Shown: positions 3,380 through 25,526, counted from the first letter of the stretch. The stretch: DNA of 33,011 nucleotides from Cytophagaceae bacterium (GCA_947486835.1 CANKVC010000004.1:1-33011); one strand, 5' to 3'. The notes: generated by a model from the letters alone, not told the origin. Numbers and translations: made by a program.

Positions 3380-3746
3380 GGGGTCGACCGGTTTTGACAG
3401 CTTTAGCAGTCTGGTTGTAAGCACGTCGGGAGTTGTAGGCATTTCCTGTTAAAAAAACCTTCGAATTATAGCTGGCAATACACAGTATGCCATGGCTGCC
3501 TAATCTGATAGATTAGACAATTTGCCATCGTCCGGCCTCTTCCAAACTCTGCCGAGGAGGATTTCTGGGCGTCGACATGCAGAGTCGATCATTAAGATTT
3601 TACTAATTAATGATTAGTACCCAGTAAATAAGTGTTAGGTAAGGTCTGATTTGAACCTATTTAACATCGAAAATGAATCAAATCTAAACGTGTAGAAGGC
3701 AATTTTACTCTAGGTTTGGACGAGGGTTCGAATCCCTCCGACTCCA
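3380..3746 (+). ncRNA. ssrA: tmRNA (transfer-messenger RNA)
   Basis: 5' GGGGTCG pairs with 3' CGACTCC (7-bp acceptor, one G-U); T-arm GGGTTCGAATCCC; tag ORF GCT GGC AAT ACA CAG TAT GCC ATG GCT GCC TAA at 3471-3503 = (A)GNTQYAMAA. Confidence 0.95.
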
Positions 3747-3760
3747 CAAGTTTTAACAAT

Positions 3761-7089: not shown

Positions 7090-7119
7090 AAAAAATGGCC
7101 TTTCACCAGGCCATTTTTT
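7090..7119. terminator. bidirectional intrinsic terminator
   Basis: AAAAAATGGCCT-TTCACC-AGGCCATTTTTT, perfect 12-bp arms between convergent genes; overlaps the sulfatase stop codon. Confidence 0.85.
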
Positions 7120-8614
7120 ATTTATTCATTTCATGTTCTAAGAGAGATTTAAGTTCTGCTGACTTTTCTTTCTGTGCAGTAGATACATTATTTTTTTCTG
7201 TAGGATCAGTTTTTAAATTATATAGTTGGTCTTCCGAATCATTCCCTAGTTCAATATTAACCAGTGGATTTAATCTAGCTCCTTTCCCACTTTTTATGAA
7301 TTTCCAATCTCCTTTTTTAATCGCTAAGGTTCCCGCTTGTTCAATGATATATTCGCGTCCGATCTTATCTTTTCCCAACCATGCATTCAAATTAGCTTTG
7401 GAGTCTTTGGCAGAATTCTCGTTATATTCAGTACCCAGCAATTGATTCATCGTAGCTAAAAAATCAATCTGAGAAATCAAGGCATTTGACTTACCCGCTT
7501 GAACTTGCTTCGGCCATTTAACAATGAACGGAACCCTTGTACCAGCTTCAAAAGAACTATATTTTCCTCCCCTTAAAATTCCAGCAGGTTGGTGCAATCC
7601 TAAATTCTCCTTGGAACCGTCGATATATCCATCATCCACCACGGGACCATTATCGCTTGTCAAAATAACTAATGTATTGGGTGTTAAACGTAAAGAATCA
7701 AGCGTTTTCATCAATTGGCCCACCGAGTCGTCCAATTGCAATAAAGCATCTCCCCTATTGCCAAAACCACTTTTTCCCAAAAACCTTGAATGTGGAATTC
7801 TGGGTACATGAATATCATGTGTAGCAAAGTATAAAAAGAAAGGACTTTTTTGATTACGAATCATGAAGGACTTCGCTTTATTAGCCAATGTTTGGGCCAT
7901 GTCTTCATCATCCCATAAAGCTTGCTTTCCGCCCACCATAAAGCCAATTCTGCCTACTCCATTGACAATCGTATTATCATGTCCATGGGAATGTTTCATC
8001 TTTAAAAGCTCCGGATTTTCCTTGCCTGTCGGCATACTACCAATTTTTTTAAGGTAATTCACCTCAATGGGATCTTTTGTATCCAAGTTTCGAACATGGT
8101 CATTTTCAATATAAACACAGGGAACTCGATCACCTGTAGCAGGCAAAATAAACGCTTCCTTAAAACCGATATCTAAAGGACCATGTTCGATTTTTCCATT
8201 CCAATTAGGGCCACCCAATGGCCCTAAACCTAAATGCCATTTGCCGATAGCCGCTGTATTATACCCCGCTTTTGAAAAAATAGTCGCAACGGTTTGTTGG
8301 CCTGCGGGAATTAACGCCGACGCGTCTCCAGTCGCCACACCCGTATCTTTTCTGCGAAAAGCATATTCTCCTTTGAGCAAAGAATATCGTGAGGGAGTGC
8401 AGGTAGCAGACGTTGTATGCGCCTGGGTAAACAATAGCCCTTTTCTAGCTAATTGGTCTATATTAGGCGTTTTAATCGTCTTAGATCCATAGCAACCTAA
8501 ATCACCAAAGCCTAAATCGTCCACATAAATGACGATTACGTTGGGTTTTTGCCCAAATGTTAAAAACGACACACACACGAAAAGAAGTACTTTGATACTA
8601 GATAAAAACTTCAT
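7118..8614 (-). CDS. secreted sulfatase (arylsulfatase family)
   Basis: Signal peptide; NVIVIYVDDLGFGDLGCYG; CTPSR active-site motif (formylglycine precursor Cys); GKWHLG. Confidence 0.95.
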   Translation of the reverse strand: MKFLSSIKVLLFVCVSFLTFGQKPNVIVIYVDDLGFGDLGCYGSKTIKTPNIDQLARKGLLFTQAHTTSATCTPSRYSLLKGEYAFRRKDTGVATGDASALIPAGQQTVATIFSKAGYNTAAIGKWHLGLGPLGGPNWNGKIEHGPLDIGFKEAFILPATGDRVPCVYIENDHVRNLDTKDPIEVNYLKKIGSMPTGKENPELLKMKHSHGHDNTIVNGVGRIGFMVGGKQALWDDEDMAQTLANKAKSFMIRNQKSPFFLYFATHDIHVPRIPHSRFLGKSGFGNRGDALLQLDDSVGQLMKTLDSLRLTPNTLVILTSDNGPVVDDGYIDGSKENLGLHQPAGILRGGKYSSFEAGTRVPFIVKWPKQVQAGKSNALISQIDFLATMNQLLGTEYNENSAKDSKANLNAWLGKDKIGREYIIEQAGTLAIKKGDWKFIKSGKGARLNPLVNIELGNDSEDQLYNLKTDPTEKNNVSTAQKEKSAELKSLLEHEMNK

Positions 8615-8627
8615 AAACTTTAGATTT

Positions 8628-9743
8628 TTATTTTAAATATTTAATTAATTCCACTCCGGCCAATAAAAAACAACCTGTCCCAAAATCTTCAAAGTCAGGC
8701 ACATGAGTATATGAAACGGGCTGTGAATCTTTAGGCTCCTTTCCAGTTCCTTGTACATTTCCTAAAAAACCATTGGGATGGACGCAGGTTGACAAAGCAT
8801 CCCAACCAGCTAAAATAGCTCGATCAAATTTCTTTTTAGGCAATAATTTATTTCTAACTCCCCAAGACATGCCATAGACAAACAAGGAAGTCCCTGTGGC
8901 TTCAGGACCACCAAAATGGGTAGGGTCCTTCAAGCTTACATTCCAAAAGCCATCTTTTCGCTGCAAAGGCAAAAGTGAATTAGCTAAATCAATAAAATCT
9001 TGTTCGTATTCAGCCCGGTGAGGAGCGTTTTTTGGCATCAATTCCAAGGTTCTCACCAAGGCCGCAAATACCCATCCATTTCCCCGGGACCAATAACAAT
9101 TCTCTCCATTGGGTTCTTTATAGGGAGGAACAAAATCTTTATCACGCCACCATAAGCCTGCATTTCTATCATACAATCCCGAAGCCCCATGTTTGTTTTT
9201 CGTAAAGGCATATAAATCATACATTTTTTCAAAATATCGATTGTCGGAAAATCGAACGCCCAAGCGCGTAAAAACTGGCATACTCATTTGCAAACAATCC
9301 ACCCAGGACCAATCATCCGCTTTGACTGAATTCACCATTAAATCCACATTAGCCTTGATGGGGAAAATTCGCAAAGAATCTGCTTGAAAATCGAATAAGT
9401 CGAGGTAAATCTGTCCGCAGGCTTGATTGTCGGCATTACGTGTTTTTATCCCGTCTCGTAGATTCCATTGATGGAAATTCGCCCAGTCCAACATATATTT
9501 CATGTCAGAGGCTTTGGGATCAATCTTATATAGTTCCATCAGCCCCTCATAAAAAACAGCACGGGTCCAAATATTAGATGGCCGAATGCGATCTGGCCGA
9601 GGAATAGGAGCTGAAACATCTGGCCATTTTTGTTGGAAATAGGCTTTAGCTACATGTAATTTCGCCAAAACTTCTGTGGTTTTTGGCTTAGCAAATCCAT
9701 GAAAACTTATTATTAATAAAATTAAAAAGATAAGTTTTTTCAT
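8628..9743 (-). CDS. glycoside hydrolase family 88/105 (unsaturated glucuronyl/rhamnogalacturonyl hydrolase-like)
   Basis: Signal peptide; DNQACGQIYLDLF, GLWWRDKDF, NCYWSRGNGWVFAALVRTLELMP, GPEATGTSLFVYGMSWGV. Confidence 0.9.
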   Translation of the reverse strand: MKKLIFLILLIISFHGFAKPKTTEVLAKLHVAKAYFQQKWPDVSAPIPRPDRIRPSNIWTRAVFYEGLMELYKIDPKASDMKYMLDWANFHQWNLRDGIKTRNADNQACGQIYLDLFDFQADSLRIFPIKANVDLMVNSVKADDWSWVDCLQMSMPVFTRLGVRFSDNRYFEKMYDLYAFTKNKHGASGLYDRNAGLWWRDKDFVPPYKEPNGENCYWSRGNGWVFAALVRTLELMPKNAPHRAEYEQDFIDLANSLLPLQRKDGFWNVSLKDPTHFGGPEATGTSLFVYGMSWGVRNKLLPKKKFDRAILAGWDALSTCVHPNGFLGNVQGTGKEPKDSQPVSYTHVPDFEDFGTGCFLLAGVELIKYLK

Positions 9744-9744
9744 T

Positions 9745-10059
9745 TTAAGCTAGATAAAACACAGAAGGCAAATTAACTGATACTGGGGAATTATCTGGAT
9801 TGGCTTTCATAATATCACCCATAAAAGCCCACCATTTTTGCATGATTGACATTGCAGGTAATCCGTCCAATAAACGCAGATCTTTGGCTTCTAAATAGGC
9901 AAACAAGGTCAGCGTCTCTTCATCCAAAAAAATAGAATAGTTTTGTATACCCACTTCCTTCAAAAGCTCGCTCAATTCTGGCCAAATTTCATCATGGCGC
10001 TTCTTATATTCTGCCTCAAAACCAGGTAATAAAAACATTTTAAATGCTTTACGTTCCAT
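9745..10059 (-). CDS. rhaM: L-rhamnose mutarotase
   Basis: 104 aa; FKMFLLPGFEAEYKKRHDEIWPEL...YSIFLDEETLTLFAYLEA...MQKWWAFMGDIM. Confidence 0.93.
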   Translation of the reverse strand: MERKAFKMFLLPGFEAEYKKRHDEIWPELSELLKEVGIQNYSIFLDEETLTLFAYLEAKDLRLLDGLPAMSIMQKWWAFMGDIMKANPDNSPVSVNLPSVFYLA

Positions 10060-13189: not shown

Positions 13190-13951
13190 TTAAATTCTTG
13201 ATTGAATGAAGGCCAACTTACCTTCCAACGAAAGTTCATCAGGAATCCAATGAATAGGAATGCCAGAGCGTTCCATTTTTCGAAAAAATGTCATTTGGCG
13301 TTTAGAAAATTGCTGAATAGCGATGGTCAAACCTTGTTCAAATTCAACTCGGTTAATATCTCCTTGAACTAAATTTACCAGCCATTTATATTCTAAACCT
13401 AATCTGATTAAATCATTTGGATTAATGCCATCAGCAATCAATTGTTCTACTTCTTCGACCAATCCATTATTTAAACGATTCGTTAATCGATTAGCACATC
13501 GCATTCTTCGAATTTCAGCCATAGGATTTAGGCCAAAAACAATAAAGTCACGATTCAACTTAAGAGACTCGTTTGCAAAGTCGGTCATCCTAGAAAATTC
13601 ATAATCTCGCAAAAGTGCGTCTAAATAAAGTCCCGTACCCCCACAAATAATAACTTGTTGGCCCATTGCCTCAACTTTCTCGATGGCTTTTAAAGCATCA
13701 AATTGGAAATGAGCCACAGAATAAGGTTCACCTACATCAAGAATATCAATCAAATGATATTTGACAGGGACTCCCCCATTTTGATATACATCCAAATCTT
13801 TTCCGGTACCAATGCTGAGGCCTCGATAAATTTGCCTAGAATCCGCTGAAATTATTTCCCCTTGAATGAATCGCGCCAAAGAAACAGCCAACTCAGTTTT
13901 ACCCGATGCCGTAGGTCCTAGAACAACAATGATTGGCTTATTTTTTTCCAT
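13190..13951 (-). CDS. MiaA-like tRNA dimethylallyltransferase, short form
   Basis: VLGPTASGKTELAVSLA P-loop, ISADSRQIYRGLSIGTGK, IICGGTGLYLDALL, FSKRQMTFFRKME. 253 aa versus roughly 300 for typical MiaA. Confidence 0.88.
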   Translation of the reverse strand: MEKNKPIIVVLGPTASGKTELAVSLARFIQGEIISADSRQIYRGLSIGTGKDLDVYQNGGVPVKYHLIDILDVGEPYSVAHFQFDALKAIEKVEAMGQQVIICGGTGLYLDALLRDYEFSRMTDFANESLKLNRDFIVFGLNPMAEIRRMRCANRLTNRLNNGLVEEVEQLIADGINPNDLIRLGLEYKWLVNLVQGDINRVEFEQGLTIAIQQFSKRQMTFFRKMERSGIPIHWIPDELSLEGKLAFIQSRI

Positions 13952-14792
13952 GAATCAAGAGCCTAGATTTAATGTTTCCTGAATTACAGGCATCAGCTGT
14001 TTTAACATCTTTTGCAAGAACTCGTTTCCCATTTTCTGCTATATTGAAATGCAAAGGAACAGTAATGAGTTCGTTTTTAAAACCAATTTTCTGAAAGGCC
14101 ATTCCACCACTCCATTCCAAATCCGAATAGGTCATTATATTATCTACCTGATGCATGTTGGCATAAAATGAAATCAATTTTGTGAGTCCGCCTACGAGCC
14201 TAACGGAAGGATCCGTACAAATTTGAATCAATTCGGCTGAAATTTGAGCATTTCCATTCTCCGTTTTAAATACTCGGTCCTTGCCAAAAACGGCTATAGC
14301 AATCAGTGGATTTCCATCTACGTCAAATTCAGATTGAATATTACGAAATTGTCGGTGTGGCGGAACAATACAAGCCAAATAGGTTTTACCTCTTAAAAAG
14401 CCCAATAAATGATTTTTATCTGCAAATTTTCGAGCGTCCTTTTCCTCTAACATCACAACTTTCGTATCACGCGCAAAAATAGAAATGGGTTTATTGATTC
14501 GAAATGTCAGAAAATTCAAAATCCAATTCTTTTTATAATTCCAAACATCTTCCCAAATTCGAAAAGCTGAAAAACCATCACTTCTAAGGTTTACAATTTC
14601 TTGTTGGAAAGCAGCTAATTTACCTGAATCCAACCTTTTAAATTCAGCTAAACAAATCCCCTGAATGATGATTGAATTTTCTTTCGATTTCCAAATTGGA
14701 AAACTATCTTGCATATATGTTTGTCGTTCAAACCCTAATGAGGCAAGATGAACATCCAATTCAAGATAAAAATTTGATTTTTCGGGAATCAT
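13938..14792 (-). CDS. GNAT-like protein paired with the MiaA-like gene
   Basis: C-terminal half resembles acyltransferase-type folds (NHLLGFLRGKTYLACIV...LIAIAVFGKDR...YSDLEWSGGMAFQKIGF). FRIWEDVWNYKKNWI resembles the end of Vsr-type nuclease folds in fused phage proteins. Overlaps the miaA-like start by 14 nt. Confidence 0.5.
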   Translation of the reverse strand: MIPEKSNFYLELDVHLASLGFERQTYMQDSFPIWKSKENSIIIQGICLAEFKRLDSGKLAAFQQEIVNLRSDGFSAFRIWEDVWNYKKNWILNFLTFRINKPISIFARDTKVVMLEEKDARKFADKNHLLGFLRGKTYLACIVPPHRQFRNIQSEFDVDGNPLIAIAVFGKDRVFKTENGNAQISAELIQICTDPSVRLVGGLTKLISFYANMHQVDNIMTYSDLEWSGGMAFQKIGFKNELITVPLHFNIAENGKRVLAKDVKTADACNSGNIKSRLLIHGKK

Positions 14793-14875: not shown

Positions 14876-15706
14876 ATGCAATTTAGATTTGAGTCGAGTA
14901 GAAATGAGGTGTCAACGTTCACAACCCAACAAATCAGAGATAATTTTTTGATCGAAAATATTTTTTCGGAAGATCAAATTGAACTAACCTATTCCATTTA
15001 CGATCGAATGATTATAGGAGGGGCAATGCCAATAAACAAAACCCTTACTTTGGGAAATCCTGATAAACTCAAAGCCACCTACTTTTTAGAGCGCAGAGAG
15101 ATGGGAATCATTAATGTGGGAGGAGAAGGTACAGTTTCGGCAGACGGAGTGGAATTTGAAATAGGCAAATTGAGTGCGGTCTATTTAGGAAAAGGGACGC
15201 AAAATGTCTCATTTAGTTCGAAATCGGCTAATGACCCAGCTTTATTTTATATTTTGTCATGTCCCGCCCATGCGACTTATCCGAATGTAAAGTTGGAAAA
15301 GGAAAATGTCATTACGGTCAACATGGGTGCTTTGGAAACTTCAAACCATCGCACGATTTATAAATACATTCACCAAGAGGGTATCCAATCTTGCCAGTTG
15401 GTCATGGGATTAACCATTTTAGAACCAGGATCTGTTTGGAATACCATGCCATCACATGTGCATGATCGCAGAATGGAAGCTTATTTGTATTTTGATGTGG
15501 ACCCAGAGCATGCTGTATTGCATTTATTAGGTGAACCTACGGAAACGAAACACATGTGGGTGCACAACCATCAAGCAATTATTTCGCCACCTTGGTCGGT
15601 TCACAGTGGTTCAGGGACGAAAAACTATTCATTCATATGGGGAATGGCAGGTGAAAACAAAGATTATACAGACATGGATTTTTCTCCAATTAAGGATCTA
15701 CGATAA
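14876..15706 (+). CDS. kduI: 5-dehydro-4-deoxy-D-glucuronate isomerase
   Basis: YDRMIIGGAMP, LGNPDKLKATYFLERREMGIINVGGEG, HDRRMEAYLYFD, SPPWSVHSGSGTKNYSFIWGMAGEN. Confidence 0.95.
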   Translation: MQFRFESSRNEVSTFTTQQIRDNFLIENIFSEDQIELTYSIYDRMIIGGAMPINKTLTLGNPDKLKATYFLERREMGIINVGGEGTVSADGVEFEIGKLSAVYLGKGTQNVSFSSKSANDPALFYILSCPAHATYPNVKLEKENVITVNMGALETSNHRTIYKYIHQEGIQSCQLVMGLTILEPGSVWNTMPSHVHDRRMEAYLYFDVDPEHAVLHLLGEPTETKHMWVHNHQAIISPPWSVHSGSGTKNYSFIWGMAGENKDYTDMDFSPIKDLR

Positions 15707-17601
15707 TGAAAAATATAGGATTAATTTGCTCGTTCTGGTTGGTGACTTTTGTGGGCCTAAGCCAAAATACACCCTATTCAGTTCAAATGGCTGAGTCATT
15801 AATGCATACGCATCAAGATTCCATTCAAGTAAAATTGGGTAAACCCGCGAACTGGGATTATGAACAAGGATTATATTTAAAAGCATTAGAATGGGTTTAT
15901 CAACGTACTGGAGATGCTAAATACTTTACTTACATTCAGAAAAATATCAACAGCTTTGTGAGTCCATCGGGGGACATCAGAACCTATAAAGCATCGGAAT
16001 TCAATTCAGATAATATCACGACGGGGAGAGCTTTGTTATTTTTATACCAAGAACTCAATACAGAAAAATACAAAAAGGCGGCCGACCTATTAATGAAGCA
16101 AATTTCAACGCAGCCAAGAACAAAGCAAGGAGGCTTTTGGCATAAAGATCGATATCCTGACCAAATGTGGCTTGATGGACTTTACATGCTTGAACCATTT
16201 TATGCCGAATACGGAAAAATCACAGGTCAAGATTATTGGTCAGATATCGTCATGCAGTTCCAATTAATGGAGAAAGGCGCATTAGACCCTAAAACTGGTT
16301 TATTGTATCATGCATATGACCATGAGAGGAAACAACCATGGGCTAATAAGTCAACAGGTCAGTCGCCAAATTTCTGGGGCAGGTCTATGGGTTGGTACAT
16401 GATGGGCTTAGTGGATGTGCTGGATTATATGCCCACAAATCATCCTAAAAGATCCATTTTAATTAATCAATTAGCTCGATTATCAGCTGCCATATTGAAA
16501 ATTCAAGATGCGAAAACGGGCCTATGGTATCAGGTACCTAATTTTCCTGGGAGAAAAGGAAATTACTTTGAAGCATCGTGTGCGAATATGTTTGTTTATG
16601 CGATAGCGAAAGGAATGCGAAAAGGGTATTTGCCACAAAATTATACCGATAAAGTTTCAAAAGCCTATGGAGGCATATTGAAAAATTTCATCACAAAAGA
16701 TGCGCAAGGATATATTCACATTGAAAAAACAGTTAGTGTGGGTGGCTTAGGTGGCCAGCCCTACCGCGATGGTTCTTATGAATATTATTTAAGTGAGCCA
16801 TTAAAAACGGATGATTTAAAAGGTGCAGGGCCATTTATTATGGCTTCATTGGAAATGGAAATTGCGAAAGAATTGGCGATTGGCCAAGGGAAAAAAGTTG
16901 TCCTAGATTATTACTTCAACCATGAATATAAGGTTTCAAAATCAGGCAAAAAGGAATTTAATAAATTTTATACCTGGGAAGAGCGGAAAGATCGCGGGTA
17001 CAGTTTATTTGCTACTCAATTAGAGCAAATGGGACTTAAAACGGATTCATTATCAGTTGCCCCTACTTTTGAAAATTTAAAAAATGCTAATATCTACATC
17101 ATTGTGGATCCTGATAATTTAAAGGAGTCTCCTACCCCAAATTATGTCCAAGCAAAGGATATTGATGAGATTGAGAAATGGGTGAAGCAAGGAGGTAATT
17201 TGATTTTGTTGGCCAATGACACAACAAATTGTGAAATCCCTAAATTCAATGAATTAGCTAAAAGATTTGGAATTGAGTTTGTGGGACCTAATTTAAATTT
17301 TGTACAAGGAACTCAATGGGAACAAGGAGCGGTGTACATTCCTGAGGGAAATCCCATATTTGCACCTTTGAAAAAGATTTATGTCAAGGAAATAACTCAA
17401 TTGAAACTCAGTAAAACGGCAAAATCAATATTGAACATCAAAGATGCGGTTGTGATGGCAGAAGCGCAAGTTGGTAAGGGGAAGGTGATCGCCTTAGGAG
17501 ATCCTTGGATTTATAATGAATATTTGAATAATCGAAGAACTCCTTTAGAATTTGAGAACTTCAAAGCTGCCAAAAAACTGATCGAATATTTATTAAAATA
17601 A
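15706..17601 (+). CDS. GH88/GH105 hydrolase with C-terminal DUF4350/GATase-like domain
   Basis: Signal peptide; FWHKDRYPDQMWLDGLYM, FWGRSMGWYMMGLVDVLDYMP; C-terminal part IYIIVDPDN...IEKWVKQGGNLILLAND...GKGKVIALGDPWIYNEY. Start overlaps the kduI stop (TAATG). Confidence 0.88.
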   Translation: MKNIGLICSFWLVTFVGLSQNTPYSVQMAESLMHTHQDSIQVKLGKPANWDYEQGLYLKALEWVYQRTGDAKYFTYIQKNINSFVSPSGDIRTYKASEFNSDNITTGRALLFLYQELNTEKYKKAADLLMKQISTQPRTKQGGFWHKDRYPDQMWLDGLYMLEPFYAEYGKITGQDYWSDIVMQFQLMEKGALDPKTGLLYHAYDHERKQPWANKSTGQSPNFWGRSMGWYMMGLVDVLDYMPTNHPKRSILINQLARLSAAILKIQDAKTGLWYQVPNFPGRKGNYFEASCANMFVYAIAKGMRKGYLPQNYTDKVSKAYGGILKNFITKDAQGYIHIEKTVSVGGLGGQPYRDGSYEYYLSEPLKTDDLKGAGPFIMASLEMEIAKELAIGQGKKVVLDYYFNHEYKVSKSGKKEFNKFYTWEERKDRGYSLFATQLEQMGLKTDSLSVAPTFENLKNANIYIIVDPDNLKESPTPNYVQAKDIDEIEKWVKQGGNLILLANDTTNCEIPKFNELAKRFGIEFVGPNLNFVQGTQWEQGAVYIPEGNPIFAPLKKIYVKEITQLKLSKTAKSILNIKDAVVMAEAQVGKGKVIALGDPWIYNEYLNNRRTPLEFENFKAAKKLIEYLLK

Positions 17602-17708: not shown

Positions 17709-18365
17709 CTAAGGAAACTTATATCCCGTCATTTTTTTTAGTTGAGCCAAAGGTATTGAATAGCTTTGCCAATTAGGATTCAAGGTCTTTTCATTCGGAA
17801 ATAAAATACACCAAACCTTATCTGGGGTGTAAACGACTTTCCAACAATATTTTGGGATGGGCATTTTGGTTGACCCTAGAGCGTCTTTGGCCCCAATGGC
17901 TCCTGCATAAATAACTAGCTTTTGTCCTCTCTTAGCCAATTTACGGCAATATGCTTCTAAACGTTCCCAAGGTCCCCGATTCAACTCTGGAGTTTGGGGC
18001 AACATATTGGACATCAAAAATGTTTCTCTGTTTAAAAAGACAGTAGACGTTCGATCTTCTGAATTACATAAATGTCCTCGGTCGTATCCCGTATACTTGT
18101 AATCAGACTCGTCAATCACATAAAATGATCTAGGAAAGCTATCGTCTTGAATAAATTTATTTGAGCGAGAAACAGAACCTACATCAGCGTCCACTAGCGT
18201 CCAGGCAACCCAATTGGCCCGACCCAAAACACCATCATAGGACATGACATAACCCGATTTTACAGATAAATAATTGGATGTAGATGCAGTATTTGCACCT
18301 GAAATATTCATAATTCCTACAGGCAAAACCTGTAGAAAAAATGAAATAATAAGATTTAAAATCAT
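17709..18365 (-). CDS. secreted DNA/RNA non-specific endonuclease (NucA-like)
   Basis: Signal-like N-terminus; YDRGHLCNSEDRT matches the DRGH catalytic motif; NMLPQTPELNRGPWERLE. Confidence 0.92.
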   Translation of the reverse strand: MILNLIISFFLQVLPVGIMNISGANTASTSNYLSVKSGYVMSYDGVLGRANWVAWTLVDADVGSVSRSNKFIQDDSFPRSFYVIDESDYKYTGYDRGHLCNSEDRTSTVFLNRETFLMSNMLPQTPELNRGPWERLEAYCRKLAKRGQKLVIYAGAIGAKDALGSTKMPIPKYCWKVVYTPDKVWCILFPNEKTLNPNWQSYSIPLAQLKKMTGYKFP

Positions 18366-19138
18366 CTTTTAAACGAAAATAACCAAGATAATAAGGCTGG
18401 CTGCGCAAAGGTATTATCCCATGAATTATGATTCACCCCGGGATATTCCGTATACGTCACATTAGCTTTAGCCTCTTGTAAGGCAGCTACTAATTCCCTC
18501 GAATGTTTTACTGGAACTACCGCATCTGCATCTCCATGATTCACCCATAAAGGTAATTTTTTAGCATATTTTTTCACATAGGTCAAATCCGCCCCACCAC
18601 AAATTGGAATGGCAGCAGCAAACATTTTTGGATTTCTTGAAACCGCTTCCATGGTCCCCATGCCACCCATCGATAAGCCCATGATGTATAAACGTTTTTT
18701 ATCGGCAACTTTCGATTTAACCAAACTTTTGACCAAATCTATGGCAGATTGTAAAGGCCAATTGATATTTTGGGAATAGTCGAATACAAAGGAAGTTGGC
18801 TTTTGTGTTCGATCAATCTTCACTGAAGACCAATAGGAATCTTTGGGACATTGAGGAAAAATAACAATCGCAGGGAATTTGGCTTGGTTTTCCGGATTCA
18901 AAAAAACTTGAGTTCCATATTTCATTTGTGCCACGTTATCATCTCCCCGCTCACCCGCACCATGCAAAACCAAAACAACTGGATATTTGGTAGAAGGGTT
19001 ATAATTGGTCGGGTATAAAATCTGATAGGATAAACTTTGACCTGACTCATTCACATAGGATTTCTTTTCAAAAACACCTTGAGCGAAAATTTGTACACTT
19101 AAAAAAAGAAGCGCTAAGGCAATAAATAATTTTTTCAT
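18362..19138 (-). CDS. secreted alpha/beta-hydrolase esterase (feruloyl-esterase / prolyl-oligopeptidase type)
   Basis: Signal peptide MKKLFIALALLFLSVQIFAQ at 19138; VVLVLHGAGERGDD, MGLSMGGMGTMEA, WVNHGDADAVVPV. Start forms an ATGA overlap with the madM stop, favouring 19138 over 19186. Confidence 0.9.
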   Translation of the reverse strand: MKKLFIALALLFLSVQIFAQGVFEKKSYVNESGQSLSYQILYPTNYNPSTKYPVVLVLHGAGERGDDNVAQMKYGTQVFLNPENQAKFPAIVIFPQCPKDSYWSSVKIDRTQKPTSFVFDYSQNINWPLQSAIDLVKSLVKSKVADKKRLYIMGLSMGGMGTMEAVSRNPKMFAAAIPICGGADLTYVKKYAKKLPLWVNHGDADAVVPVKHSRELVAALQEAKANVTYTEYPGVNHNSWDNTFAQPALLSWLFSFKR

Positions 19139-19893
19139 AAGATTTTTTCTAAAATTAAATAAAATACGGATGGACATAATAGGCAACCCATCCCGGTTGC
19201 AAAAGTAGCTGTTAATGCGCCATAGGGAACTAATTTGGTATCTGTAGCCGCTAGACCAGCTGAAACACCTGATGTGGTACTCATCATTCCCCCATAAATC
19301 ATCGCACTATGTGCATTATTTAAACCAATATAGGGGGCAATAAATGGGGTAGAAATCGTGACAAAAATAGATTTTACAACGCCAGTAGCAATGCTTAATG
19401 CAATTACCTCAGAACTAGCTTGTAAAGCGGCTCCTGTCACTGGACCTACGATAAAAGTACAAGCGCCTGCTCCAATAGTGGCTATACTTTTAGCATCATG
19501 ATAGCCCAAAAAAACAGCAATAATGGCGCCGCCAACAAAAGATACGGTTGTTCCTAAAACTAAAGAAATGGCTCCGGCTAAACCTGTTTGACGAATCAAC
19601 ATAAAACTGGCACCCATCGCGGTAGATACAATGGCAAAATCCCTAAACATGGAACCACCTAATAATGACATTCCTGAGAAAATAGAAATGTCCGCAATTC
19701 CCTTAGATCCACCTGTATATAATCCTGAGAAATAGGCGACAATTAAACCTAATAAAATGGCAACTGCCGCTCCAGGTATCTTATTTTTCAAGACATGTTT
19801 GGAAATTAAAAAACCCAAATAGCTAATGATACCCACCGCCACAAACGCAACAATCAAGCCATTCTTTTCGAAAAAGTTGACAATAATTTCCAT
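19135..19893 (-). CDS. madM: malonate transporter subunit MadM-like
   Basis: 252 aa; GLIVAFVAVGIISYLGFLISKHV...KGIADISIFSGMSLLGGSMFRDFAIVSTAMGA...TSGVSAGLAATDTKLVPYGALTATFATGMGCLLCPSVFYLIL. Confidence 0.85.
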   Translation of the reverse strand: MEIIVNFFEKNGLIVAFVAVGIISYLGFLISKHVLKNKIPGAAVAILLGLIVAYFSGLYTGGSKGIADISIFSGMSLLGGSMFRDFAIVSTAMGASFMLIRQTGLAGAISLVLGTTVSFVGGAIIAVFLGYHDAKSIATIGAGACTFIVGPVTGAALQASSEVIALSIATGVVKSIFVTISTPFIAPYIGLNNAHSAMIYGGMMSTTSGVSAGLAATDTKLVPYGALTATFATGMGCLLCPSVFYLILEKIL

Positions 19894-19894
19894 C

Positions 19895-20263
19895 TTAGTT
19901 GTTTAATGGTGATTTAGTTAATTTAACTAATAATGGAATGCATGCGAAACACATAAAAACAGGAATGACACCCGCGAGAATGGCTAATAAACCAGAATTA
20001 AGTGCCACCACCACGTTTTGGGTGGCTGACATAGCCACAATAACGGGAATGTACATTTGGCTCCAAAACAAAATTCCTTTTTCCGCTTCAGCAGAAAATA
20101 AATTCCGTTTGTTAAAATAGTCATGTGCTAAAATCAAAAATAACATGGCAAATCCAACTCCCCCGACATTGGCTTTAACACCAATCCATTTGGCTAAAAA
20201 TTCGCCTACCAATTGGCCTAATATATAACAGGCCCCTAAAAATGAGACTCCATAAATAACCAT
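19895..20263 (-). CDS. madL: malonate transporter subunit MadL-like
   Basis: 122 aa membrane protein directly upstream of madM; GVSFLGACYILGQLVGEFLAKWIGVKANVGGVGFAMLFLIL...PVIVAMSATQNVV. Confidence 0.85.
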   Translation of the reverse strand: MVIYGVSFLGACYILGQLVGEFLAKWIGVKANVGGVGFAMLFLILAHDYFNKRNLFSAEAEKGILFWSQMYIPVIVAMSATQNVVVALNSGLLAILAGVIPVFMCFACIPLLVKLTKSPLNN

Positions 20264-22158
20264 TATTTTATTCGTTTTAACATGTCAGAAATAGGAAATC
20301 GAATCGCTTGACCCATGGGTTTTTTACCTCGATAGCCAATCACGCGCATTTCGACAGCATCCTTGGGCACAGTGATAACTCCTAATGCAGCAGGATAATA
20401 ATGGTCGGGCAACGAGTGATCGAAACTATAGTGGAATGAAATGTTCCCCACTTCTGCTGTCATATTAACTTGAATCTCCCCCTTTGATGTTTTTGAAAAC
20501 TTGAAAATAGGGTCATACATGCTTCGAGCGTATTTAATTTCAGCCATATCTGATCTTTCAAAATGATTTTCGACTCGGCTGATAAAATTATCCCAATTTT
20601 TATTATCGTTTTTTGACCATAAATCTTCTGCCACAGCCCATGCCCGAGGATATAACATATATTGAAGATGTCGGTAATTAAATAATTGCTCAGACCATAA
20701 ATTTGCTTGGCCACCTTTAATTAATTCAGCATTTACGCCTTGAGGTACCGGATTGAAATCATAGGAGTTTTTCAGCCGAACGGTTTCATAGACAGGAGGC
20801 TCAATAATTCCATCGCCCTGCATTAAATCTAGATATACATTTGAATTAGGCGTCATGACCACTTGGTGTCCATCATTTGCCGCCTGAATACCTCCTTTAA
20901 TACCTCTCCAAGACATAACAGCTGTATTTTTTGGTAGTCCACCGCCTTCTAATATCTCATCCCAGCCCATCATTTTTTTCCCTTTTGAAGTAATGATTTT
21001 TTCCAATCGGCGCGTAAAATAGGCTTGAACTTCCTGAGAATTTTTTAACCCTTCCTTGATTCTCAAGGCTTGTATTTGAGGATTTTTATCCCAATAATTT
21101 TTGGGACATTCATCTCCACCCATGTGAATATATTCAAAGGGGAATAATTCAGACACTTCACCAAAAACCTTATCTAAAAAGGTGTACACCTTTTCATTGG
21201 CAGGACATAATGTATTATCCTGCAAAGCAATCGCATGATCGGTAGACCAATCAATAAAAGGCTCCCCGGAAATTACTTGGTAATTTACTGCCTCAGGGGT
21301 ACATGAAAGTTCTGGATAAGAAGCTACAGCGGCCATTGAATGCCCAGGTACATCGATTTCAGGCATGATATCGACAAATCGATCTTTGGCATATTTAACC
21401 AATTCTCTTATGTCATCTTGCGTAAAAAATCCACCAAAATCACGAGGTTCATTCGGCTCAGGTTTAGAAAACTCCGTAAATCGGCCTATTTTCTTCACAT
21501 TAAAAGCGCCCTTTTTAGTCAAATTAGGGAATGATTTTATTTCAATGCGCCAACCTTCATCATCCGTCAAATGCAAATGCAATAAATTGTATTTATAAGC
21601 GACCATTTCGTCAATAAATTGCTTTACCTGATCCTTAGTAAAGAAATGCCGCGCTACGTCAAACATCATTCCGCGCCATGCAAATCTTGGCGTGTCCTGA
21701 ATATTCGCAAAAGGAATTTTCCAAGATACACCATTTACTATCGTTTTTGACTCTATTTCTTTGGGTAATAATTGGCCTAACGTTTGAATTCCATAAAACA
21801 AACCAACGGGATTATTAGCCAAAATCTGCACTCCACTCTGATTCACTTGAAGGCGATAACCTTCTTTTCCAAGCGATGAATCAAACGATTTATTTAAAAC
21901 AAATCGAATATTAGCTTTCGCCTGATCCCCATAAACCCATTTTAATTTATAGCCAGTGGCTTTTTTGAGTTTTTCAGAAAATAAGCTGAAAGCCACTTTT
22001 AGGCTAGGATCATTAGGTCCCGACAAAGTCAAAGATGAAGGCAGAGAATAAGAACCCTTTGGGTATTCAGCCTTTAATGGAATGGGAATAATAGAAGGTG
22101 TTTGACCCCTAAAAACATAGGATGTCAAACAAATGAAAGTTAAAATTACATACTTCAT
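20263..22158 (-). CDS. beta-N-acetylhexosaminidase (GH20)
   Basis: WRGMMFDVARHF, LLHLHLTDDEGWRIEIK, DIMPEIDVPGHSMA, YIHMGGDECPKNYW (catalytic DE), VMSWRG. Confidence 0.96.
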   Translation of the reverse strand: MKYVILTFICLTSYVFRGQTPSIIPIPLKAEYPKGSYSLPSSLTLSGPNDPSLKVAFSLFSEKLKKATGYKLKWVYGDQAKANIRFVLNKSFDSSLGKEGYRLQVNQSGVQILANNPVGLFYGIQTLGQLLPKEIESKTIVNGVSWKIPFANIQDTPRFAWRGMMFDVARHFFTKDQVKQFIDEMVAYKYNLLHLHLTDDEGWRIEIKSFPNLTKKGAFNVKKIGRFTEFSKPEPNEPRDFGGFFTQDDIRELVKYAKDRFVDIMPEIDVPGHSMAAVASYPELSCTPEAVNYQVISGEPFIDWSTDHAIALQDNTLCPANEKVYTFLDKVFGEVSELFPFEYIHMGGDECPKNYWDKNPQIQALRIKEGLKNSQEVQAYFTRRLEKIITSKGKKMMGWDEILEGGGLPKNTAVMSWRGIKGGIQAANDGHQVVMTPNSNVYLDLMQGDGIIEPPVYETVRLKNSYDFNPVPQGVNAELIKGGQANLWSEQLFNYRHLQYMLYPRAWAVAEDLWSKNDNKNWDNFISRVENHFERSDMAEIKYARSMYDPIFKFSKTSKGEIQVNMTAEVGNISFHYSFDHSLPDHYYPAALGVITVPKDAVEMRVIGYRGKKPMGQAIRFPISDMLKRIK

Positions 22159-22165
22159 AAATTAC

Positions 22166-23812
22166 TTAAACTAAAGATTTTCTTGCCTCACGATCGGGAT
22201 CTAAAGCAAGCATTGATTGATCATTTAATATCATGGTCTCCCCTTTTTCTGACGTATAAGGCTTCCAGTTAGGCAAACCACCTCCATTTGGGTTTCCTGT
22301 TCTAACAAAATTCAAAAAGCTTTTAGCCATTTTTTCTGACAATGCTCTAGGACGTTTACCACCTCCGGTATGAGTTAGCATTAAGTCCGTATTATAAAAC
22401 CAAAAGCAAATGTCATCGCAATGAAAAGCACGCATTCTGCCGTCAAATAGCGGTGGTTGCCAGCCGAACCAAGAAACATACACGGGAGCTTTTTTCTGTC
22501 CCGACTTCACATTCGCTGTTGCTATAGCATTTTTACGATTGGAATTAATTAATGCCCAGATTTCAATCGGCTTAGCCTCAGGGAAATTTTTAGCATAAGC
22601 ATCAACTACATTACTAGTTTGATCAGCAAACCTTGTTTTTAGTTTCTCTTTGACTCCTGACAAAGTTATTGTTTCCAAAAGAGCATCTGTTCTAGATGGA
22701 GATTGCTCATGAAAAGTTGTATTAATTAATAAAGGAATATCGGCTGAAAAATGAGAAGAATCTTTAAAGAATTCCCCGGCAGCTAGGTATTGACCATCGC
22801 CTACAGGTGAAAAACCTGCTCGGGCAATATTCATACGCTTAGCTTCATCCCCCATTTTAGCGGCTGCTTTATTGGCCACGTCAATGTATTCACGCCAAGA
22901 AAGTTTCTGCAAACCTTTGATATCACCCGGTTTCAAACCAGCTTCTTCCATAATTTTAAGTCCAACTTTCTCAGCAAATTCTTTGTTGGTCCCACTCAAT
23001 GAACTACCACTCAAAGCCACCGCTTTATGAAACAATCCTTTGGCAGATGGCATATTCATTAAAGTTGTCACTTTAGAACCTCCGCCAGATTGACCTATAA
23101 TGGTCACATTACCTGGATCGCCACCAAAATTTGAAATATTATCTCGGATCCATTCCAATGAAGCGACCATATCTAAATTACCTACATTTCCTGAGGCTGG
23201 ATGACCACCAGCCGCAGAAAGCTGACTATAACCTAAGGCCCCTAAACGATGATTAATTGAACAAAAAACAACATCACCAAACCTCGAAAGATTTTCCCCA
23301 TGATATCCATCCTGCTCTATGGCATTCCCATTCGTATATCCACCCCCGTGCAACCATAAAATAACAGGCCTTTTTTTCTGATCTAATGTAGGAGTCCACA
23401 CATTGATGCGCAAACAGTCTTCAGAAACATCATCATAATTCCAATGATCCACAAAAGAAGCATATTGATTTGCATACCGATTGTCCATGATTTGAGGAGC
23501 TGTATTTCCCCACCAAACGGCAGGACGAGTTTCGGTCCAAGGATTAGGTTTTTGAGGAGGCATAAACCGATTGCTTCCCGACGTATCCGCTCCATAAGGT
23601 ATGCCTAAAAAAGTATGGATTCCGCGAAGTATGAAGCCGCGAACTTTTCCGTATTGTGTGTTAGCGACTGCAATATTATCGCCAACAAATAATTGTTGAT
23701 CATCTAAAGATAGAGATTTAGAATCCTTTGAATAACCGTTATAATGCCCTAGGCTTAAACTTGCTGAGCCAAGGCCCAAAGATTGAATGAAATCACGACG
23801 ACTTGCTTTCAT
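22166..23812 (-). CDS. type B carboxylesterase with Tat-like signal
   Basis: SRRDFIQSLGLGSASLSLG twin-Arg start; LGIPYG, EDCLRINVWTP, VILWLHGGGYTNG, VTIIGQSGGGSKVTTLM nucleophile elbow. Confidence 0.95.
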   Translation of the reverse strand: MKASRRDFIQSLGLGSASLSLGHYNGYSKDSKSLSLDDQQLFVGDNIAVANTQYGKVRGFILRGIHTFLGIPYGADTSGSNRFMPPQKPNPWTETRPAVWWGNTAPQIMDNRYANQYASFVDHWNYDDVSEDCLRINVWTPTLDQKKRPVILWLHGGGYTNGNAIEQDGYHGENLSRFGDVVFCSINHRLGALGYSQLSAAGGHPASGNVGNLDMVASLEWIRDNISNFGGDPGNVTIIGQSGGGSKVTTLMNMPSAKGLFHKAVALSGSSLSGTNKEFAEKVGLKIMEEAGLKPGDIKGLQKLSWREYIDVANKAAAKMGDEAKRMNIARAGFSPVGDGQYLAAGEFFKDSSHFSADIPLLINTTFHEQSPSRTDALLETITLSGVKEKLKTRFADQTSNVVDAYAKNFPEAKPIEIWALINSNRKNAIATANVKSGQKKAPVYVSWFGWQPPLFDGRMRAFHCDDICFWFYNTDLMLTHTGGGKRPRALSEKMAKSFLNFVRTGNPNGGGLPNWKPYTSEKGETMILNDQSMLALDPDREARKSLV

Positions 23813-23912: not shown

Positions 23913-25166
23913 ATGAATGAAACTGCCACGCTTGCTGCTCAGCAAGTAGAACTTACACACGCTATTGACACAGTTTGGGTCGCCATTTGTGCGGCATTAA
24001 TCTTCCAGATGGAAGGTGGATTTGCTCTTTTAGAAGCGGGATTTGTCCGATCTAAAAATGCGGTCAGCATTATCGCCAAAGTAATGATTGACATCTTATT
24101 TGGTGGGGTTGCCTTTTACTTAGTCGGTTTTGGAATTGCCTATGGCCATTCGAATGGCTATTGGGCCTTCGATTTTGGTATTTCAAAAGAAGATTTAGGA
24201 TTAGGATTGACCATTTCGAATAGTCTATTTTGGTTTATCCAAATGGGCTTTGCGGTGGCTGCTATTTCCATTGTTTCCGGTGGAGTAGCCGAGCGAATGA
24301 AAATGTGGTCCTATGCCGTTTTTGTTACGATATTTTGTGCTGTGATGTATCCGTTGGCAGCTAATTGGGTTTGGAATCCAAACGGCTGGTTAGCCGTGCA
24401 AGGCTTTAATGATTTTGCAGGTTCTGCTGCTGTTCACGCGATGGGTGGATTTGCAGCCTTAGCTGGTGCAATCGTTTTAGGACCTCGATTAGGAAAATAC
24501 AATGAAGATGGGAGCATCAATGCGATACCGGGACATAATCTAACTTTATCGGCCGTTGGAGCTTTTATGTTGTGGTTTGGTTGGTTCGGATTCAATCCCG
24601 GATCCACCTTAGGGGCAGTCGGAAAATGGGAATTAATAGGTTCAGTCGCTACAAATACATTTTTAGCTTCAGCCGCAGGAGGAATTTCAACGATCTGTTA
24701 TACTTTTTTACGGTACAAAAAAGTGGATATAACCATGGTGATCAATGGAGTATTGGCCGGTTTAGTGGCCATTACGGCAGGATGTAATGTAGTAAGTCCA
24801 AACAGTGCATTAATCATCGGATTGGTGGCTGGAACTTTAGTAGACATGGCTGTCGTGATCGTAGATAACATGAAAATAGATGATCCCGTGGGAGCCATCG
24901 CAGTTCATGGAATAAATGGTTTCTTTGGAACGATTGCCGTAGGTTTATTCTCAGAAAAAAATGGCTTATTTGTGACCGGTGAAACGAGCCAATTAATCGT
25001 TCAATTTACAGGGGTAGCGGTGATCAGTGTATTCTCATTTGTTCTAACCTATACCATTTTTAAAATATTGAAAGCGACCATGGGAATTAGACTAAGTCAT
25101 AAAGCAGAGTCAGCGGGTATTGACGCAGTTGAATTTGGAGTAGAATCTTATACAACATTTGAATAA
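23913..25166 (+). CDS. amt: ammonium transporter
   Basis: MEGGFALLEAGFVRSKNAVSII, FAGSAAVHAMGGFAALAGAIVLGPRLG, LWFGWFGFNPGS, AVHGINGFFGTIAVGLF. Confidence 0.97.
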   Translation: MNETATLAAQQVELTHAIDTVWVAICAALIFQMEGGFALLEAGFVRSKNAVSIIAKVMIDILFGGVAFYLVGFGIAYGHSNGYWAFDFGISKEDLGLGLTISNSLFWFIQMGFAVAAISIVSGGVAERMKMWSYAVFVTIFCAVMYPLAANWVWNPNGWLAVQGFNDFAGSAAVHAMGGFAALAGAIVLGPRLGKYNEDGSINAIPGHNLTLSAVGAFMLWFGWFGFNPGSTLGAVGKWELIGSVATNTFLASAAGGISTICYTFLRYKKVDITMVINGVLAGLVAITAGCNVVSPNSALIIGLVAGTLVDMAVVIVDNMKIDDPVGAIAVHGINGFFGTIAVGLFSEKNGLFVTGETSQLIVQFTGVAVISVFSFVLTYTIFKILKATMGIRLSHKAESAGIDAVEFGVESYTTFE

Positions 25167-25184
25167 TAGCTAAATAAATTAGAT

Positions 25185-25526
25185 ATGAAAAAGGTAGAAG
25201 CCATTGTAAAACCATCGAAATTAAAAGCTATTCAAAAGGGCTTGATCGATGCCAATATCCCTTGCATGACCGTGGTTCCCGTTCGGGGAGCCGGTTTACA
25301 ACAAGGCTATTCAGAGATTTATCGGGGTACCGAAAAATCATTAATCTTATTACCTAAAATCATGATCATTTGTGTGGTCAGCGATGAAAACCTAGAAAAA
25401 TGCTTAAGTGTGATCTTAGACAATGCCTCAGAAGGAAACACGGGGGATGGAAAAATCTTTGTTTATGATGTCCAAGATGCGATTAGGATTAGGACGAGAA
25501 CGAGGGGGATTGAGGCGATTAGGTAG
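25185..25526 (+). CDS. P-II family nitrogen regulator
   Basis: 112-113 aa; MKKVEAIVKPSKLKAIQKGL, YSEIYRGTEKSLILLPK T-loop, GDGKIFVYDVQDAIRIRTRTRGIEAI; 18 nt after amt. Confidence 0.95.
   Translation: MKKVEAIVKPSKLKAIQKGLIDANIPCMTVVPVRGAGLQQGYSEIYRGTEKSLILLPKIMIICVVSDENLEKCLSVILDNASEGNTGDGKIFVYDVQDAIRIRTRTRGIEAIR

Follow-up and report, generated by a model that had tools for sequence, protein, structure and literature searches.

Malonate carriers of the MadLM type are used by mdc/mad malonate decarboxylase clusters in some bacteria. Here, we analyzed a 33,011-nucleotide stretch of DNA from a Cytophagaceae bacterium (GCA_947486835.1, CANKVC010000004.1:1-33011; hereafter, the window), in which a madL-madM pair lies inside a six-gene, minus-strand operon of exported hydrolases at positions 17709-23812. 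Like the described MadLM malonate:Na+ symporter (PF03817/PF03818, TIGR00807/TIGR00808), the pair has both subunits, adjacent and above the curated cut-offs; unlike it, the locus has no malonate decarboxylase genes, and its operon partners are secreted hydrolases. The other close system is assimilation by MatB-MatC or MatB-MadLM, and MadLM with MatB gave a working route from malonate to malonyl-CoA when engineered into E. coli (PMC12303837). The likeness here is that MatB co-occurs with MadLM across the genus of the window and adjoins it in most Bacteroidota loci. The difference is that matB of the window's subclade is unlinked, inside another carbohydrate operon, and that in the MAG of the window it probably falls in an assembly gap. 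The window system most likely serves ordinary, MatB-dependent uptake of malonate, with its genes divided between two operons, and we consider it probable that these are two carbohydrate operons into which the parts of the module were inserted in one subclade.

Gene content of the operon

The window is contig C4 of a metagenome-assembled genome (MAG) of 2.09 Mb, 90% complete in 197 contigs, whose genus is Aquirufa (freshwater, Spirosomaceae). A sequence-only reading of the window had described six packed minus-strand genes, and all six were recovered where it had placed them, with agreeing Pfam families. In order of transcription, they are:

22166-23812, minus strand: COE, carboxylesterase B with a twin-arginine translocation (Tat)-type N-terminus (SRRDFIQ); PF00135/COesterase, 287 bits
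20263-22158, minus strand: GH20 beta-hexosaminidase, exported; PF00728/PF02838, 380 bits; ancestral first gene of the operon
19895-20263, minus strand: madL, malonate carrier subunit; PF03817, 159 bits; TIGR00807 equivalog, 136.3 against a cut-off of 113.45
19135-19893, minus strand: madM, malonate carrier subunit; PF03818, 356 bits; TIGR00808 equivalog, 326.6 against a cut-off of 236.3
18362-19138, minus strand: EST, exported alpha/beta-hydrolase esterase; Peptidase_S9, Abhydrolase_2 and Esterase models (Pfam)
17709-18365, minus strand: NUC, DNA/RNA non-specific endonuclease (NucA-like), likely exported; PF01223/Endonuclease_NS, 161 bits; ancestral last gene of the operon

With MadL and MadM adjacent and both above their NCBIfam equivalog cut-offs, the pair is a MadLM carrier, as had been proposed. 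The solved relatives of GH20 are beta-N-acetylhexosaminidases (top match 6q63), and GH20 was matched at E<=1e-60 in 37 of 38 genus genomes. EST contains the nucleophile motif GLSMGG and has esterase 3doh and LC-Est1C 3wyd as its nearest solved structures; its likely start is the ATG at 19138, which overlaps the madM stop, an upstream TTG at 19186 being less likely. The solved relatives of COE include 7x8l, 5a2g and Est50. Family membership and N-termini suggest that GH20, EST, NUC and COE are exported and serve to scavenge amino-sugar polymers, esters and nucleic acids. A SusC/SusD pair was not found among the window proteins run against Pfam.

The genes are tightly spaced. Seven nucleotides separate COE from GH20, the GH20 stop and MadL start overlap by one base (TAATG), one nucleotide separates MadL from MadM, and the MadM/EST and EST/NUC junctions are both ATGA overlaps. 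Gene order and overlaps are repeated in relatives whose contigs span the locus, and purifying selection is strong on all six genes, with ratios of nonsynonymous to synonymous substitution rates (dN/dS) of 0.01-0.10 in four subclade comparisons.

MadLM and its partners in Bacteroidota

MadM was found in 87 of 223 Spirosomaceae genomes, 84 of them above the family cut-off, and in 8 of the 395 genomes of a class-wide sample, 4 of the 8 lying outside Spirosomaceae. At most Spirosomaceae loci, a MatB-type ligase either immediately precedes madL or converges on madM. Outside the window subclade, a MatB of at least 40% identity adjoins 51 of the 69 named MadM loci, most of them from Bacteroidota. MadLM in Bacteroidota is thus mainly a MatB partner, which bears on assigning malonate decarboxylation from MadLM alone. 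A literature search returned nothing on MadLM in Spirosomaceae. Relatives of GH20, EST or NUC were near MadM at none of the same 69 loci; the recurrent GH20 and nuclease linkage for which the window reading had proposed a search was not seen there.

Within Aquirufa, carrier and ligase occur together. A strong MatB was present in 20 of 29 genomes searched, and 7 of the other 9 also lack MadM. The two genomes with MadM and no MatB, the window MAG and G036, are both fragmented, and G033 (62% complete) has a subclade-type MatB and no MadM. The joint count (20 with both, 7 with neither, 2 MadM-only and 1 MatB-only) gives a Fisher P of ~1e-4, hand-calculated and uncorrected for kinship. The nearest solved relatives of the ligase are the malonyl-CoA ligases 3nyq and 4fuq.

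The comparison with mdc/mad clusters stops at the shared MadLM-type carrier. No mdc gene is within the window, and mdcA (the MdcA/MadA alpha subunit, PF16957) was found in 0 of 38 genus genomes, with an E. coli positive control matched. The proposal that the system is not tied to malonate decarboxylation thus held up. A decarboxylase cluster elsewhere, supplying an ordinary malonate pathway, had been named as evidence to the contrary: no decarboxylase was found, relatives have an ordinary pathway through an unlinked MatB, and the window MAG itself gave no MatB match.

Other arrangements of the carrier were also seen. In several other Spirosomaceae (L059, L067, L068, L075, L076, L081, L084 and L086), matB-madLM adjoins genes for the breakdown of aromatic compounds, identified by their sequences as 4-hydroxybenzoate hydroxylase, protocatechuate dioxygenase, 3-carboxymuconate cycloisomerase, 3-oxoacid CoA-transferase and thiolase. 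A KduI homologue begins 47 nt after MadM at L227:7001-8631, another adjacency of malonate and uronate genes. MadM carries one internal stop in G034 (C11) and in G169 (C559), which suggests carrier decay in some species, or assembly errors.

History of the operon site

The operon occupies a site between AmtB-GlnB and GH105-KduI that is conserved across the genus. In the window, its flanks are:

14876-15706, plus strand: kduI, 5-dehydro-4-deoxy-D-glucuronate isomerase; NF002091, 428.6 against a cut-off of 250
15706-17601, plus strand: GH88/105-type hydrolase; PF07470; syntenic in the genus and marking the conserved insertion site
23913-25526, plus strand: AmtB and GlnB, on the other side of the site; named by sequence and synteny, with the same neighbours beside other operon variants in the genus

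Four variants occupy this site. GH20-NUC, with neither madLM nor EST, is found in 7 genomes; GH20-EST-NUC, again without madLM, in 13 (G022 and G034 being cut by contig ends); GH20-madL-madM-EST-NUC in 3 (G025, G029 and, spread across two contigs, G032); and COE-GH20-madL-madM-EST-NUC in 10, the window among them, with contig ends truncating some and one (G020, whose contig ends before COE) classed by its tree position. In the cases sampled, the GH20 stop meets the next start, whether NUC, EST or MadL, directly or within a few bases and with no scar. The linkage seen in the window therefore extends beyond one strain, to 13 Aquirufa genomes with madLM in this operon. However, the two variants without madLM give no support to the idea that the esterase, GH20 and nuclease set is itself a malonate system. 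They also occur in species with matB-madLM elsewhere or with no such module at all, and EST, GH20 and NUC are present in species without MadM (G010 and G017; G022 with EST and NUC). COE orthologues (72-76%) sit elsewhere in other species, including the madLM-bearing G025 and G029.

From these variants, the hydrolase operon GH20(-EST)-NUC is older than its linkage to madLM, and only some members of the madLM-bearing subclade gained COE at the site. The MadM proteins of the 13 genomes with madLM in the operon form one clade with a Shimodaira-Hasegawa-like approximate likelihood ratio test (SH-aLRT) support of 99, and the COE-bearing class alone has 100. MatB of the window subclade likewise forms one clade (99). 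Because the MadM and MatB trees show the same Aquirufa lineages (the window subclade; types I and II; and type III, which groups with another genus [L069]), matB and madLM share a history despite being apart here.

The second operon and a probable assembly gap

In the window subclade, matB is in an SDH-matB-GH105-KduD-GH88 operon, 1 nt behind SDH, a 942-amino-acid secreted protein that is sugar-dehydrogenase-like by sequence; GH105, KduD and GH88 were named by sequence and by homology to window genes. Only in this subclade does matB stand between SDH and GH105. In the genus genomes checked outside it (L169-L176 and L179-L182), the site is empty and GH105 directly follows SDH, with KduD and GH88 also next where the contig reaches. 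In G036, the contig ends inside SDH (L178).

A DNA search of the window MAG with the 19-kb reference L168 matched only from position 13239 of the reference, to within 339 bases of the start of contig C130. The other 13 kb, which carry SDH, MatB, GH105 and KduD, had no orthologous match in the window MAG, and a close SDH orthologue was likewise not found there. Because this whole 13-kb region is absent at a contig end, matB is most likely missing from the MAG through an assembly gap.

These loci are most simply read to mean that madLM was inserted once into a hydrolase operon that already existed, that matB was inserted once into another operon, and that COE moved later. Under this reading, madLM would have entered between GH20 and EST of the older operon in one Aquirufa subclade, COE would have been placed in front in some of its members, and the subclade's matB would have entered the SDH-GH105-KduD-GH88 glycan operon. 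The two insertions would therefore have brought the malonate module under the expression of two carbohydrate-scavenging operons. MadLM would import malonate across the inner membrane, MatB from the unlinked locus would activate it to malonyl-CoA, and the malonyl-CoA would most likely go into fatty-acid synthesis. The benefit is probably that malonate genes are read together with carbohydrate scavenging, allowing uptake during digestion of plant or algal debris. The pair of loci would cleanly illustrate how a metabolic module of two parts was split and built scarless into two existing carbohydrate operons of one subclade, with empty sites in sister species.

Several results weigh against MatB-dependent uptake from a split module. 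The assembly of the window itself yielded no MatB. For the MatB of a Spirosomaceae relative, the top NCBIfam model is malonyl-CoA synthase NF005702, at 376.6 against a cut-off of 558; because this best score falls under the cut-off, "MatB" is used here as a functional reading, and we infer its substrate. A search for malonyl-CoA decarboxylase (PF05292) returned no match, but its positive control also gave none. Finally, the gene overlaps kept in the operon leave scope for a direct role of the esterases, and esterase-bearing madLM operons exist in Chitinophagaceae; both are taken up below.

Alternative explanations

The best-surviving alternative is chance hitch-hiking, whereby a working malonate module recombined into an expressed hydrolase operon and was kept for its expression only, its neighbours being functionally unrelated. 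This shares function and insertion history with the split-module reading and differs only on the meaning of the placement, so the probabilities of the two overlap. The position of the module does vary within the genus, with MadLM in at least four different contexts, and neither GH20 nor NUC adjoined MadM at the 69 other loci. However, the subclade's matB likewise went into a glycan operon, a second one (two sites being a small sample), and the maintained overlaps and purifying selection fit shared regulation somewhat better than chance. We regard hitch-hiking as a serious possibility, short of probable.

In a further alternative, close to the one drawn from the window alone, exported COE and EST would cut malonyl half-esters from a decorated uronic-acid glycan or plant glycoside, MadLM would import the malonate, and MatB would activate it. 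In its favour, COE was added to the operon nowhere but in some members of the subclade that bears madLM, and most type III Aquirufa loci have a different COE-family gene (~32% identical) ahead of madL. Additionally, the subclade matB adjoins GH105 and KduD, while madLM is near KduI and GH105. The closest parallels are Chitinophagaceae operons of the order matB, secreted BD-FAE or GDSL esterase, madL, madM (L193, in which the esterase appears split over two reading frames, L203, L205, L226, L228, L233, L236, L239 and L244). Some have UxuA/UxaC, or KDPG aldolase and a major facilitator superfamily (MFS) carrier, upstream; others have SusC/SusD, a fucosidase, a sulfatase and a GDSL esterase around them. 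At L212, a GDSL esterase follows madM by 10 nt. These operons are like the window in having a secreted esterase in a madLM operon, in uronate or SusCD context, and unlike it in the BD-FAE/GDSL type of esterase, in having matB inside the operon, and in having no GH20 or nuclease. The top Pfams among 65 non-Aquirufa madLM operon partners were GDSL lipase (5), BD-FAE (4), COesterase (4) and Abhydrolase_3 (4), while 98 random genes of the family genomes had no esterase family among their 25 most frequent Pfams.

Against a malonyl-ester role stands the order of events at the site, as EST, GH20 and NUC predate madLM there and exist without it. Linkage of esterases to madLM beyond the window clade was seen in the Chitinophagia operons and the second Aquirufa lineage, and most MadLM loci have no esterase; an esterase is an operon partner in only ~5 of 63 dereplicated non-Aquirufa loci, all from Chitinophagia and partly of one gene family, from which the esterase effect largely comes. 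Uronate linkage was non-significant (P=0.25). The first esterase/uronate enrichment test was partly circular, as some reference esterases were taken from MadM loci, and the esterase effect was partly found by looking for it. Among solved structures, COE and EST both have generalist esterases as relatives, and the literature searched yielded neither a suitable malonylated substrate nor a description of malonyl-ester utilization loci. We therefore think the esterase link unlikely in the window. The Chitinophagaceae operons are nonetheless candidate malonyl-ester utilization operons. That some Bacteroidota have dedicated operons of this kind (secreted esterase to MadLM to MatB), with the Aquirufa operon pair as a two-locus version, is similarly doubtful. 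If true, the esterase link would make decorated plant or algal material a new source from which malonyl units are drawn, and such operons would turn a sugar decoration into a lipid building block directly via malonyl-CoA.

That the window MadLM carries some other short dicarboxylate or acyl acid and not malonate is very improbable, for although transport data for any Bacteroidota MadLM were not found in the literature searched and the PDB holds no MadM relative, both subunits pass the equivalog cut-offs and MadM accompanies a MatB-type ligase across Bacteroidota.

Other features of the window

Apart from the operon, a sulfatase, a GH88 and an L-rhamnose mutarotase are adjacent at 7118-10059 (minus strand), with another GH88/105 and KduI nearby; without SusCD, this looks like a small sulfated rhamnose/uronate (ulvan-like) glycan set. 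Beside miaA, at 13938-14792, a 284-amino-acid protein has no Pfam or NCBIfam match; its position is fixed in the genus, but its conservation there is only 38-48%. A tmRNA gene at 3380-3747 encodes the tag GNTQYAMAA.

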